Of a stretch of DNA of 64,000 nucleotides, positions 2,308-22,857 are shown in pieces. Source of the DNA: Amphirosellinia nigrospora (taxonomy: Eukaryota; Ascomycota; Sordariomycetes; Xylariales; Xylariaceae); NCBI GenBank assembly GCA_004123355.1, contig SCHM01000003.1, positions 3,367,058 to 3,431,057 of the forward strand, in the 5' to 3' direction. The position numbers and the translations under genes are program-made. The notes under the pieces are model-generated. The model made no database searches, had not been told where the DNA came from, and saw nothing but the letters and a program-made list of their open reading frames with translations. Position 1 is the first letter of the stretch. Every line of letters starts with the position of its first letter.

Positions 2308-3841
2308 GTTATTGGATATCAATCCCACCGAATGGATATTTTAGAAAAGACAATATTTAGCCAAGGGCCTCGAAGAAGAAAGCTATCTGCGTGTTACGAA
2401 CTAGGACGTCGAGTACGATGCTGTGCCGAGAGAGAAAATCAAACCCGGATGTCGACGTCCATTTTATTTATATGAATCCATTCACACAGGGCTCCTGCTT
2501 AACAACCCGCTCAGAAACGATGTCGAAAAAAGATACCCGAATAGTCATGAGCATCTAAGGGATGAATAAGCGTTTGCATCGTATATCTCATCAGCGATTG
2601 GAGGCAAATGGCCGCAATAGTCATGATTGGATCGTGCGTCATGGGCTGCATCAACTTATGGGCCTCGGTTGGGCGTAGAAATGTAACCCCGACCCTGGTA
2701 CCCCCCCATTATGTGATCCGATAATGCGCAAATGTAAGAATTGGTGGTTACATTATTATCGCTGACTAAGGGTAAAGTTCGGGATCTCGTCTCGTTCGTT
2801 GCTCACGAAGTAGGCGAATGGCGAGGGCATCCTAAAGGGATTTATTGAGAGACCTTTTTAATAATATTCACGTAGTACAAACTCGTGTCTAAGTTGCACC
2901 AGTACCTACTTCAAGGTTGGCATGGGGGCCTGAGCCAACCTATCCGGCTAAAGCTGGGTTTTTGCATGTTTCAACAGTTTCCTGCCCGCTCGGGCTCTGC
3001 TCGTCTTACCCAAGTTCCTACATACTCAGTACTTAGGTAGGTATCGTAACACAAGGGAACAACCTTAGCGAGGTCCTCTGCCAGGTTGCATTTACAATTC
3101 CAATTACACTAAGACTACCTACCTACCTGGTAGTTGTATAGGTTTACTGAGTGACTAAAGCAGGACCCGCTTAAGAGAGGAAGACGGGCAGTCGAGAGTT
3201 ATCAACAAGACACTATGGCGGAGTGGTTTACACATAATTAGAAATGCGACATTTAGACCAGTACAATTCCTTAAGCTCAATACTGAGTAGATGACGGTAT
3301 GGCGGCGAGATTACCTGGAGTTATATAAGCACTACCCCTACTGTGACGATCGGGCCAAAAGCGGCATGTGCCTGCGAGGTAGGATTCTGATTTTGATTCC
3401 AATACAGGTTAGTAAAATCTGCCTGGGATCTACACTATGGTGATTCAGGTACGCCACCTCAAACCTCAAACACCAGGTCCTGACCAGGACCCTGTCACAG
3501 CTTTTGTGTGCTGGCACTACCGTGCCCGGCCTGCGCCTTCGTGTTTCGTCTCATATGTCGGCGGATCACAGGGATTCCTGCAGGGGAAGCTCCAAGAGTT
3601 GTTGAGCTTCACGATTACCGAAGTAGAGCTGCAAATGGTCTTCTCTTATCATTTGCCAGGTATCAGGTCGTCCTGGGATGACACCCAAAAAGGATAGCAT
3701 CCCCTGAATGGGGGATGTGATTGAAGCTCTCTCGAACTGCCATGTGAAGCTAAAACCAACTTGCCCTTTTCTTCTTCTATCTCTATTTACTGTGTTAGTA
3801 GAAACCCCATCCGGTCGAGTGTATTACCATCTCCTGTTCCG
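2308..3841. other. Intergenic, about 1.5 kb
   Basis: Divergent gap between the OYE and BTB genes. It contains short CCTA/TAGG palindromic tracts (3040-3060 and 3116-3140) and, at 3321-3350, a TATATAAG...CCCCTACTGTGACGA segment also found near 43216. An 86-codon open frame at 3437-3697 has no recognisable features. Confidence 0.5.
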
Positions 3842-7577: not shown

Positions 7578-9380
7578 TTGGAAGAGGATTACGATGCCAT
7601 GGATTTCACCCAGCGCACAGACCAATCGGCGGCCGCCAATCACCAGGCAACCACTCTATCCGATGATTTTATGTTTGGCTTCAACATTGTGGATGACGAT
7701 GAGAGAGAATACTTGGCTGAGGTAGCTAAACATGGAATGGGGAATGAGGACGATATTCAAGGTTTTATTCGCCTCGGTCTCCTCCGCGGAATGGAAGAAT
7801 GGGAACAGGCAATTTGTTGCGCCTCTGCGATGAGAGATCGAGCATCTTTCAACGATCCCTTGGATGGGCAAGACATTCTCACCTTCTTGGCAAAGATTTA
7901 TCGTGTTGATGGGCCATGCCATGCCACAACTCCCAGTCTCCTCTCCACGAACTTAGACCCTCCGACCAGGGTGGAGGAATACCACTGGAAAGACCGGCTG
8001 GCAAGAAGAGACGGGCCAAAGTTACAGACTCTCCTTATTGGGCAACAACGTCGATACCAGTACGCAAAGAAGGTAACCAGTCAACAAACCACCAAGAGGC
8101 CAAAGTAGCGGCGGAGGTGAAGGAGGCTTCGACGAAATGCAGATTCAATGGCGCAATATCTCCAAAGCCTATGGTTCCTGCAGAAGAGTCCGAAGATGAT
8201 ACAGCAAGGCTTGGATGTGAAGACCCCGAGTTTTTAAGGATACCGTCATGTTTGGACACTCAAGGAGACACTCAAGGAGACACTCAAGGAATTGTATGCC
8301 AACATAAAGACAACATTACGGGAGAAATGCGAGAAGATCTCGGTTCAAACTTACCCGAGCCCAGGCCTAACACCCCTACGATTGAAGATATGGACTCGGT
8401 GCAGTTGAACACTGCATCCGAGAGAACAAGCGAACAGGAGGGCATCGGAATAACCCAAGCCCCGTCGGACGAGGAACATAAGCAATCGCCAACACAAAAA
8501 GCGACACCGAAGCGCAAAACAGAATCTCCCTACTTCGAGACCAAGAAAACAGAAGTGCCCAGCCCAGCAAAGTCGGTATCAAAAAGCCCCAACAAGAGGC
8601 CGCCGCGCGGTACCGTCTCAGCGCTGCCCTTCCCGCGTCTCGACAGCCCGCGGTTCGGGCTGATCCAAGAGGAGCTGGCCGCCGACCCGTTCCGCCTGCT
8701 CATCGCCGTGACGTTCCTCGTCCGCACGTCGGGGAAGGCCGCGATCCCCGTGTTCCGGGCCCTCATGGAGCGCTATCCGACACCGAGTCGCCTCGCCGAG
8801 GCTGACACGGCCGACATCGTGGCCATGATTAAGCATCTGGGCCTCGGCGCCGTGCGCGCCGCGACCATCCAGCGATACGCGCGCGCCTGGCTGGAAACCC
8901 CGCCTCGGAACGGCGTCCGGTACCCCGTTAAGGGGTATCATCCCAACTCTACTGAAGGGGACATCTTGATGCACAGTAACGATTTTTCTTCTTTCCCTAC
9001 CGAGACAACGGCTTCCTCGACAGGGTGGGAAATCGGCCACCTGACGCAGGGACCGTACGCGCTGGACAGCTGGCGCATCTTCTGCCGCGACGTGCTGCGG
9101 GGCGTGGCGAAGGACTGGAAGGGCGGAGGGCGCGAGGGCGAGTTCCAGCCCGAGTGGATGCGCGTGCTGCCCGCGGATAAGGAGCTGCGGGCGTGTCTGC
9201 GTTGGATGTGGATGCGGGAAGGCTGGGCTTTGGGACCCGGCCACGGGCGAGAAGACCATTCTCCCGGATGAGTTGCGCCGCGCTGTTCAGGATCGGAGGG
9301 TTGGCTGGGATGAGACTGGAAACTTGAGGATCTTGGATTGCGTGATTGAGCCTGCAGGCTACGCTAGACTTGTCCCATGA
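7578..9380 (+). CDS. HhH-GPD DNA glycosylase, MBD4-like (thymine/uracil mismatch type), frameshifted
   Basis: Base-excision repair glycosylase. The C-terminal catalytic domain (about 8640-9380) has the order FGLIQEELAADPFRLLIAVTFLVRTSG, a helix-hairpin-helix region (IKHLGLGAVRAATIQRYA), and the MBD4-type active-site segment LTQGPYALDSWRIFCRD with the catalytic aspartate. The N-terminal 350 residues are low-complexity with two SPYW/SPYF motifs (TDSPYW, TESPYF) and three exact 12-bp repeats. No methyl-CpG-binding domain is visible, as is usual in fungi. Frame changes occur around 7915-7990 and at about 9225 (GCTTTGGGACCC), after which DELRRAVQDRRVGWDETG continues to TGA at 9378-9380. The start at 7578 is the first good ATG; 7593 is an alternative. 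It is convergent with DAHP synthase. Confidence 0.8.
8255..8290 (+). repeat. Three exact tandem copies of a 12-bp unit in coding sequence
   Basis: The unit GACACTCAAGGA occurs at 8255-8266, 8267-8278 and 8279-8290 and encodes DTQG three times in the disordered N-terminal part of the glycosylase. The unit keeps frame, so copy-number changes would be tolerated. Confidence 0.95.
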
Positions 9381-18829: not shown

Positions 18830-20376
18830 TCAGATGTTCGATTTCAAATCTCCACCATATGACACCCTCCTTAAGGTTGCTTGGCTAAGATCTGTGATGC
18901 TCTTAATCCCAGCCAAGCCCATGGTACCGTCCAAATCAGCGAGTAGCGATGAAATAACGTGTTTCGCGCCCGCCTGCCCAGCAATACCAAGCCCGTACAT
19001 CACCGGCCGGCCAACCAGTACGGCCTTGGCCCCAAGAGCTAGAGCTTTGATTATATCGGCCCCGGTTCGAATGCCGGAATCGAAGAGGACAGTCATCTTG
19101 TCGCCTACCGCTTCGACGATCTCCGGAAGCATATCTAGAGACCCGACGGCACCGTCGACTTGCCTGCCGCCGTGGTTGCTGACGATGATTCCGGAGACGC
19201 CGTGATGTAGGGCTAGAACGGCGTCGTCTGGATGCTGGATCCCTTTAAGCACGATCGGCCCGTCCCAGTGCTTCTTGATCACCTCTAGGTGTTCCCAGGG
19301 GTGGCTGTCGCCGGAGAACGCCTCGCCCAGCCAGTATCCGGCGGCGAGGACGGGGCTGTCTTCGGGCGTGGCGCCGTCGCTTCTCTCATCGAATTTGCGC
19401 CGGAAAACCGGGTCGTTGAAGCCCACGGTATTGCCTTGGCCCATCATGAAGGGTATGTCTGCAACACCCGGAGTTAGTTATCGCAGTTTGGCGCGTGAGG
19501 TAAAGGGGAAAAGAGAGATCTCCCCGCTGTAAAAAGGTCACGAAAATTACTCACATGCAGTATCCAGATCGGCCGGCCTCCAGGACATAGTCGCAGTGTC
19601 TAAAGTCACGACCAAGACCTTGAAGCCATTTGCTTTCGCCGTGCTTAGTATAGAGGCGGTGATCTCGTCGTCCATGGGCCAGTATAGTTGGAACCACCGT
19701 GGATTATCGCCGCTGGCTGCCGCCACTTCCTGTATGGTACTCGAGGCTGCCGTGCTCATGATGAAGGGAACATTGACCTCGGCGCACGCTGCGGCGGTGC
19801 CAACCTCCTTGTCCCTGTGATACACTTCCTGCACTCCTACTGGTGCTATTAACACGGGGGAGTCTGTGTTTGCGTTAGCCCTATTATTATCTATCCTTGG
19901 TTTCCCTCTGTATTCCAGGGTCGATGTCACGTACCGTACACCTCCCCAAATAGGGTGACTTTGAGGTCTCTAGGTGCGCTCGGTCGCATCACTATAACAC
20001 TCGAAATTAGTTATCGTTATTTAGAGTGTGATTTTTGAGAATTTCAGAAGCTTCTGGATGCTATCTAGCCCGAAAAAGGGGATCATATGCTCTAAAATTG
20101 CCAAAAACGAAGAAGGTGGTCCCGAGATTTACGCACTCCGGGTACTATTTTCCACTGCCGGAAAGCGAGGCGGTTGGCGTCCATCGTGGCGCCCTCGCCC
20201 GCACCGCCTGCGATGTAGTTATAGGCATCTTCGCGCATGGCTTCCTTTGCTTGGAGCCTTAGTTTATTAGGGTCTGTAGTAACCGTGGGGCGGATCCCCT
20301 GTAAAACACCTTGTGTGTAGATTTCGGTCTGATAGTTGCCGAAAGGCGGCTTGATATTTTCTCCGTTGTCCCCCAT
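18830..20376 (-). CDS. FMN-dependent alpha-hydroxy-acid dehydrogenase/oxidase (lactate 2-monooxygenase-like)
   Basis: Flavoenzyme oxidising a 2-hydroxy acid, most like lactate 2-monooxygenase-type proteins; the exact substrate is not readable. Exons: 20376-20137, 19991-19935, 19863-19555, 19458-18830; introns 145, 71 and 96 nt, all GT-AG. Motifs: AYNYIAGGAGEG at the N-terminus, DLKVTLFGEVYDSPVLIAPVG, PRWFQLYWP, VLVVTLDTATMSWRP, VLKGIQHPDDA (FMN Lys), the catalytic IIVSNHGGRQVDGA with His and Arg, and VLFDSGIRTGADIIKALALGAKAVLVGRP (phosphate binding). The end of exon 1 (KIVP then RMM) needs one extra C at about 20139 to keep frame across intron 1. Corrected length about 412 aa. Convergent with the Zn2Cys6 regulator. 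Confidence 0.88.
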
Positions 20377-21157: not shown

Positions 21158-21166
21158 GGTGACAAA

Positions 21167-21217
21167 CAGGTCAGTTATTCGCACATCAACTTTCAGTAAT
21201 CGAACATCAAACTAGCC
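21167..21217 (+). repeat. Left terminal inverted repeat of the MITE
   Basis: 51 bp, starts CAGGTCAGTTATTCG and ends ACTAGCC; exact inverted match to the right end. Confidence 0.95.
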
Positions 21218-21648
21218 GCTTCTAGTCAAACCTCTTGAATGCTCCGCTTTATACCCAATTTGTATAGAAGCCCCAGCAGCCAAGAAGCAGGAATTAAAAA
21301 AACAGTTAATTATATTTCAAGCAGTCATAAAGTGCTTAATCGGCTAATGCTATATATTAGGTCTTTAAACGACGTATTACCGCTAAATTTATTTACAAAA
21401 GCGTCTGGGTTAAAAACTATCAATTTAATTACAGTGCAGGTAGGTAGCAATAGTAGCTAAAGCGCTATAAATGCTATATTTCGATACGTTAAATAGGTAG
21501 GCAGGTAGCAAAGATCTAACACCTCAACCGTGTTTTTAATTATTTCTCTTTTGAAGAGGTAGATTCTACTGGGTTATGCCGAATCACCTATACAAATTGG
21601 GCTAGAAACGGGGCGGTGGAGTATATGGCGAGCCTCTTGACTAGAAAT

Positions 21649-21699
21649 GGCTAGTTTGATGTTCGATTACTGAAAGTTGATGTGCGAATAACTGACCTG
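21649..21699 (-). repeat. Right terminal inverted repeat of the MITE
   Basis: 51 bp, ends AATAACTGACCTG; exact inverted match to the left end, followed directly by the second GGTGACAAA. Confidence 0.95.
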
Positions 21700-21708
21700 G
21701 GTGACAAA

Positions 21709-22036: not shown

Positions 22037-22857
22037 ATGGACATTGACGATATCTTGCGGGAGGTCGATCCCGCCTCGCAATCCATCCCAGAGGAAACGC
22101 GCGATCTCCAGGCCCTGACGCGCGCTTGGGTCGCCGAACGCTCATCCCCCGAGCTACTGAGGTATGTTCGCGTATTCTATGCCTTCCTTCAGAGCCAGCT
22201 TCGCCGAGACGAGACGAGACGAGACTGATGTGGTTGTTTCTCTCCGCTTGTAGCTGGCCCACCGATGGCCTCTTCGAGCGCGTCAACGATCGCATCAAGC
22301 AGCAGATTGAGAGGGTCGAGGAGATGACGGGCGACATGGACCCAAAGACGAATTTCGCCCTCATCGTCATACAGACCGAGCTCGAACGATTCAAATATCT
22401 CGTGCGAAGCTACCTCCGCGCGAGAATCGCCAAGGTATTCGAGATGGTCTACCACCAATCCCCCGCGACCGTCAAATAGCTGACCCTTCCGACGTTAGAT
22501 TGACAAACATACGTTGCATTACTTGTCCAATCCAGATGTGAGAGCGCGACTCTCCGAGACGGAGCAAGCTTACGCCACGCGCCATCAGGCTCTATTGCAC
22601 AACCACTATTTGTCCTCCTTTCTGTCTGCCTTTCCGCCCACGCTACAAAACCTCAATGACACCGCCGGAAACATCAGCATGATCGACACCCCCGACATGG
22701 AGACCGCTGTCTTCATCCGCCTCCTCAAAGACACTCTCGTCGAAGGCCACGGACCGACAGGGACGGTGTCATGAATGGCAAAAATGGCGACATTATTATT
22801 TTGAGGTGGTCCGACGCAAAAGCACTTGTAGATTCTGGTCGTGCTGAAGTCATATGA
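22037..22857 (+). CDS. SLD5: GINS complex subunit Sld5
   Basis: Part of the GINS tetramer of the CMG replicative helicase. Exons: 22037-22161, 22254-22434, 22499-22857; introns 92 and 64 nt, GT-AG. The N-terminus [12 protein letters not shown], the central [25 protein letters not shown] and the C-terminal B-domain ([22 protein letters not shown]) are characteristic of Sld5. One base is missing at about 22752 (GGACC, expected GGGACC); restoring it gives [15 protein letters not shown] and a 221-residue protein, the normal length. Without correction the frame would end at a TGA 90 bases early and lose the strand that contacts its partners. An essential gene, so a genuine frameshift is improbable. 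Confidence 0.94.

Follow-up and report, generated by a model that had tools for sequence, protein, structure and literature searches.

A short non-coding element upstream of SLD5 in Amphirosellinia nigrospora, a copy of a MITE family that was probably moved by a Mutator-like transposase

The 64-kb stretch of Amphirosellinia nigrospora DNA analyzed here (the window; C5:3367058-3431057) carries a short element, A1, which is very likely a copy of a small MITE family that was probably driven by a MULE in the past, and the source of which is apparently lost or dead in the assembly that we searched (48,114,038 bases in 11 contigs). As to the mode of movement and the identity of the transposase, we infer that a transposase acting in trans on inverted ends of about 50-60 bp would have moved A1 by cut-and-paste, with a 9-bp staggered cut giving rise to the target duplication, and that the most likely mover would be a transposase of the Mutator superfamily (MULE). 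The source of this transposase would have disappeared or died, as is apparently the case in the assembly, and the short non-coding copies would have kept their intact ends.

Architecture and neighborhood of A1

A1 occupies positions 21167-21699 of the window on the + strand, and its GC content is 38%, compared with 50% in the window. The original prediction of a 533-bp element with perfect 51-bp inverted ends was right to the base: the left terminal inverted repeat (21167-21217, + strand) matches the right one (21649-21699, - strand) at 51 of 51 positions, and upon extension inward to 21229 and 21637, respectively, the predicted 61 of 63 matches were reproduced, followed by 63 of 70. In a repeat search, the arms came out as 70 nt with 93% identity, starting at 21160 and thus including seven bases of the duplication. 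The inner inverted pair that had been described is present as well, with exact 14-bp arms at 21254-21267 (+ strand) and 21588-21601 (- strand) that lie within a longer inverted pair of 27 nt and 78% identity. By comparison of the flanks, the element is bordered on both sides by the 9-mer GGTGACAAA (21158-21166 and 21700-21708, without strand assignment), as claimed, and the + strand of the window has no further occurrence of this 9-mer besides those at 21158 and 21700. The longest stop-to-stop frame in A1 is 73 aa, and a Pfam search with four A1 frames, which constitute the whole coding check within family A (see below), gave no matches. A1 is complete and non-autonomous and is bordered by a target duplication; most likely it has no function of its own now.

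A1 lies between two divergent genes. The start codon of SLD5, which encodes a GINS subunit, is at position 22037, i.e. 329 bp past the right 9-mer, in agreement with the approximately 330 bases that had been stated. The SLD5 model (22037-22774, + strand) has three exons (22037-22161, 22254-22434, 22499-22774) and short introns; its splice sites were set by eye, and an additional 3' exon may be absent from it. The gene was identified by its match to Pfam Sld5 (E = 6.5e-14) and by solved SLD5 chains (E = 1.2e-20 for the best). The opposite flank of A1 contains an FMN-dependent dehydrogenase-like gene at 18833-20376 on the - strand, the approximate bounds of which were drawn manually from the reading frames; the distance between A1 and its likely start codon is about 790 bp. 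A fungal-specific transcription factor domain is also encoded within the window.

Related copies and their target sites

The original prediction had proposed a genome search for further copies, and when the assembly was searched with the element as query, at least eight full-length copies including A1 were found that measure 483-662 bp from tip to tip (family A). When the copies were aligned with MAFFT, identity to A1 was 97-100% in the ends and 83-89% in the interiors. Two related families exist in addition. Family B, which surfaced among the weaker matches, comprises six copies of 519-589 bp with the tips CAGGTCGGCTACTCGCACATC, and family C, with CGAGTCA tips, comprises three intact copies and two interrupted ones, one of which is split by the family A copy A5 and the other by an AT-rich block. 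The tips thus are of two types, CAGGTC in families A and B and CGAGTC in family C. These counts leave out extra partial or degraded pieces that were also seen. As an architecture like that of A1 recurs at 13 further sites in families A and B, and as all these elements are short, multi-copy and equipped with terminal inverted repeats, the A, B and C copies are a real MITE group. MITEs of this kind are already known; four end strings of the three families had no match in the literature searched, and exact matches of the tips were absent from prokaryote genomes and viral contigs, which has little bearing on fungi.

Target duplications were examined at 17 intact copies (8 of family A, 6 of B, 3 of C). 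The flanks match exactly at a length of 9 in 14 of the 17 copies and at a length of 8 in one (A4), and in none at 6, 7, 10, 11 or 12. The three flank pairs that are inexact at 9 bp are those of A4, A8, which are alike at 8 of 9 positions, and B2, which differ by one G within a run of G. As a control, the left 9-mer of one copy was compared with the right 9-mer of another, and there was not a single match in 272 such comparisons. By eye, no common motif was seen among the duplicated 9-mers.

Two copies permit a look at uninterrupted versions of their target sites. The 9-mer that is duplicated at A5 is part of the left tip (bases 4-12) of the C element into which A5 is inserted, and the duplication of this host element itself, CAAATCGGG, is intact on both outer sides. 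Seven sister C ends cross the insertion point of A5 without interruption, with GTCAGATTT being exact in three of them and differing by one base in four; since only 12 C bases are left of the junction, this case depends on the C tip. For B5, a paralog without insertion is located at C5:4014570-4014705 (136 bp, 80% identity), and it carries TTCAATCTA once where B5 has CTCAATCTA (8 of 9 positions alike). Together, the uninterrupted paralogous sites of A5 and B5 show that these elements inserted with a 9-bp duplication. This conclusion comes from the copies and from the A5 and B5 sites, not from the site of A1 itself, the flanks of which matched only themselves when the assembly was searched for an uninterrupted paralog.

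The GC content in the flanks of the 13 other A and B copies is 43-51%, unlike that of the AT-rich blocks. Ten longer flanking frames from nine of these 13 copies were compared with Pfam, and seven of them matched, one being an integrase. At locus L003, 17 bases past the insertion point on the right of A3, there is a 58-bp stretch that recurs in many places, with several pairs about 5.57 kb apart; together with the integrase frame (L003:2332-3510), it looks like the end of an LTR retrotransposon.

The search for a transposase

Which transposase moved these elements? The 9-bp duplication and the long ends are the reason for considering a MULE: an excerpt of PMC6446971 gives 8-11 bp as target duplications of MULEs, and A1 has 9 bp, with inverted ends of 51 exact positions and 61 of 63 upon extension; long terminal inverted repeats are a trait of many, though not all, MULEs. 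These features of the predicted Mutator-like element stood, and they make the assignment plausible on sequence grounds. The tips, which are CAGGTC (A, B) and CGAGTC (C) and not the GGNAA of Hop-type MULEs, speak against it. As this one assembly yielded no transposase-encoding element that bears such ends, a MULE can be named only as the probable mover.

A profile search of the assembly with the MULE domain PF10551 gave seven matching stretches in five places. Six of them contain stops, and the place of the seventh has a stop in an adjoining stretch; three of the five places contain three or more stops, and a lax search added one weak stretch at one of the same five places. Since the search takes no account of introns, one stop alone is no proof of a dead gene, and since only the best candidates are scored as well, a gene may have been missed. 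No A, B or C ends were found to frame the domain when the surroundings of the five places were inspected to about 5 kb in both directions: at up to 7 mismatches in 24, the A/B tips gave a single match, which has 7 mismatches, lies at L060 4 kb from the domain and is taken as chance, and at up to 8 mismatches in 28, the C tips gave none. At L057, a degraded piece of family A sits at a distance of 3.5 kb from the MULE domain; its 16 outermost bases are lost, and the body is directed away from the domain.

The MULE places have further features of their own. On contig C9, two MULE remnants (L058 5048-6591 and L060 4981-6528) share 92% identity across 1.5 kb, while other pieces have been rearranged from one to the other; their tips are unlike A, B and C. 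At L057, an inverted pair of about 55 bp (2959-3009 and 8063-8117, 87%) spans a MULE-domain remnant over about 5.2 kb end to end and differs in type from A, B and C. Several loci (L057 4761-5102, L072 2137-2478, L034 546-914, L074 1579-1717) have a repeat in common that reaches about 340 bp, and two of them also contain a family B tip.

When the whole assembly was scanned for tips, the A/B pattern gave 38 matches at up to three mismatches and the C pattern gave 16, with none in the control in either case. Read by eye, these matches are short, nested or interrupted copies or single tips, and no opposed tip pair within 20 kb was seen to frame a long coding element. One candidate with opposed tips 7.8 kb apart, C4:7487114-7494944, was rejected as a long element with family C ends, as the tips belong to one C-type MITE, the two parts of which are separated by a block of mostly 3-20% GC; its left 9-mer is not repeated, and the sole frame of at least 80 aa is found at the left margin of L079 (positions 1-243). 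Several-kb blocks of this type, mostly 3-20% GC, occur at L079 (C4:7487000-7495100) and at L061, one of them interrupting a family C MITE, and they look like heavily RIP-mutated repeats. For six partnerless tips (L072, L074, L075, L033, L042 and the outer one of L034), a matching end with duplication was found downstream in none of the six cases, within a reach of about 1.5 kb for most loci. The tip at L075 (1501-1538; C1:13771369) is a lone 38-bp family B tip located some 40 kb before the contig ends, and a few hundred bases away there is a frame that, by impression, looks like part of a polyketide synthase. In summary of these scans, no coding element bearing A, B or C ends was found in the assembly, and neither was the longer element with the same ends and a MULE transposase that the original prediction had suggested to look for. 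The idea of an active transposase elsewhere in this genome is not supported by these results, as each of the five MULE places has at least one stop and no long coding element lies between tips.

Could the same MITE family have been moved by a transposase from outside the Mutator superfamily (hAT, Merlin or one not yet described), the target duplications of which are by coincidence 9 bp long? The ends of hAT elements may begin with CAG, as the A and B tips do, hAT dimerization domains without stops exist at four places in the assembly, and none of the MULE remnants is associated with A, B or C ends. However, the target duplication of hAT elements is 8 bp, and only one of the 17 copies is exact at 8, in contrast to the 14 that are exact at 9. 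Merlin makes duplications of 8-9 bp, but PF12762, the IS1595-type transposase domain of Merlin, had no match in the assembly. Moreover, ends of 50 bp or more fit MULEs, as far as the excerpt of PMC6446971 describes them. We therefore consider a mover from another superfamily unlikely, and a MULE remains the preferred candidate.

Among known elements, the Hop-group MULEs of ascomycetes, i.e. Hop1 of Fusarium oxysporum and VdMULE1-3 of Verticillium dahliae, share long inverted ends with families A, B and C; in the part of PMC3441728 concerned, the ends of VdMULE1-3 are given as 86, 82 and 53 bp, an 8-bp duplication is reported for one VdMULE, and GGNAA is the terminal consensus of Hop1 and the VdMULEs. 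In contrast, our families have a 9-bp duplication and CAGGTC or CGAGTC tips, and no coding capacity was found in them. In a table of PMC6446971, two entries from Ascomycota come close in one respect each, and by table description alone the MULE-Cglob sub-group (51-bp ends) matches A1 in end length and Phantom-Ca (9-bp duplication, 34-bp ends) in duplication length. With the mimp MITEs of F. oxysporum, as described in an extract of PMC3599309, our families have in common that short non-coding copies lie near genes, that there are several subfamilies, and that an intact transposase source is absent from the reference genome; mimps differ in being driven by impala (Tc1/mariner) and thus belonging to another superfamily, and in their shorter ends (about 27 bp) and lengths (200-220 bp).

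Divergence of the copies and the time of movement

Pairwise identities within family A range from 0.867 to 0.969, and the interior differences are mostly transitions (974 vs 244, pairwise). Transitions from the consensus at C were found at 36 of 378 CpA, 3 of 263 CpC, 7 of 254 CpG and 19 of 497 CpT positions, and those at T at 39 of 652 TpA, 10 of 353 TpC, 4 of 393 TpG and 13 of 757 TpT positions; this excess at CpA and TpA is as expected of RIP. Eight of the 23 shared RIP-type columns fit the groups A5, A7 and A8 or A7 and A8 in our own reading, and as other shared columns conflict with these groups, recurrent mutation is possible. In family B, RIP is not clear, since interior changes are about equally common elsewhere (CpT 18/255, TpG 11/159, CpG 6/92).

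The ends, i.e. the outer 51 columns on each side in family A, changed far less than the interiors, in counts from copies that were picked for good ends. CpA/TpA changes in family A amount to 2 of 216 at the ends vs 73 of 814 in the interior, and in family B to 4 of 177 vs 39 of 655 (p = 0.055, such p-values being merely indicative, because the copies share ancestry). The other classes behave in the same way, with transversions at 0/799 vs 28/2953 and other transitions at 3/583 vs 59/2139 in family A, and at 0/597 vs 36/2283 and 1/442 vs 82/1606, respectively, in family B. As the ends are conserved in these classes too, it is not merely that RIP spares the edges. Such a conservation across copies is as expected of sites that a transposase must recognize, and the likeliest reading is that the copies diverged before their last move, and that only those with good ends moved. 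Against this reading stand the choice of copies by their ends, their common ancestry and the lack of a clear CpA bias in family B.

The identical ends of A1 had been taken to suggest recent movement. This is weakly based, because perfect ends and a perfect 9-mer allow a divergence of several percent and there is no near-identical sister, the copy closest to A1 being 91.5% identical. With two differences in 63 + 9 paired positions (about 3%, with a wide error), the ends date the insertion poorly. A further reading would be that the family is active now, with A1 being very young and with an intact transposase that was missed due to introns or is located outside the assembly. The 51-bp perfect ends and the perfect duplication of A1 would agree with this, as would the family A ends that are 97-100% alike among copies, but the stops at each of the five MULE places, the best sister of A1 at 0.915 and the closest family pair at 0.969, and the failure to find a long element with such ends argue against it, and we regard present activity as even slightly less probable than a mover from another superfamily. 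A chance inverted repeat or an assembly artefact, finally, is refuted by the sister copies and has practically no probability left, as the element recurs on several contigs with different flanks and as 14 of the 17 copies have their own exact duplication.

With A1 being preferably regarded as a copy of a once MULE-driven family, it is conceivable, if only tentatively, that the A, B and C superfamily of MITEs outlived its driver, and that diverged copies kept moving through their intact ends. In that case, the interiors of family A would have diverged partly by RIP-type mutation before later moves, the ends would be a record of selection for mobility, and, in a genome in which all MULE places found have stops, a foreign, transient or lost transposase with the uncommon CAGGTC/CGAGTC end type would have been needed. 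The group documents fungal MITEs with 9-bp duplications and uninterrupted sites in one genome, and it may serve as a small natural test of non-coding elements under RIP, in which interiors change and ends stay. In Mycosphaerella graminicola, as far as an extract of PMC4522978 covers it, there is a MITE family with 8-9 bp duplications, and RIP was examined in MITEs, with ten families of an average match length below 200 bp being free of dinucleotide bias. Compared with these unbiased MITEs, family A (483-662 bp) has a CpA/TpA bias, and family B has no clear one.
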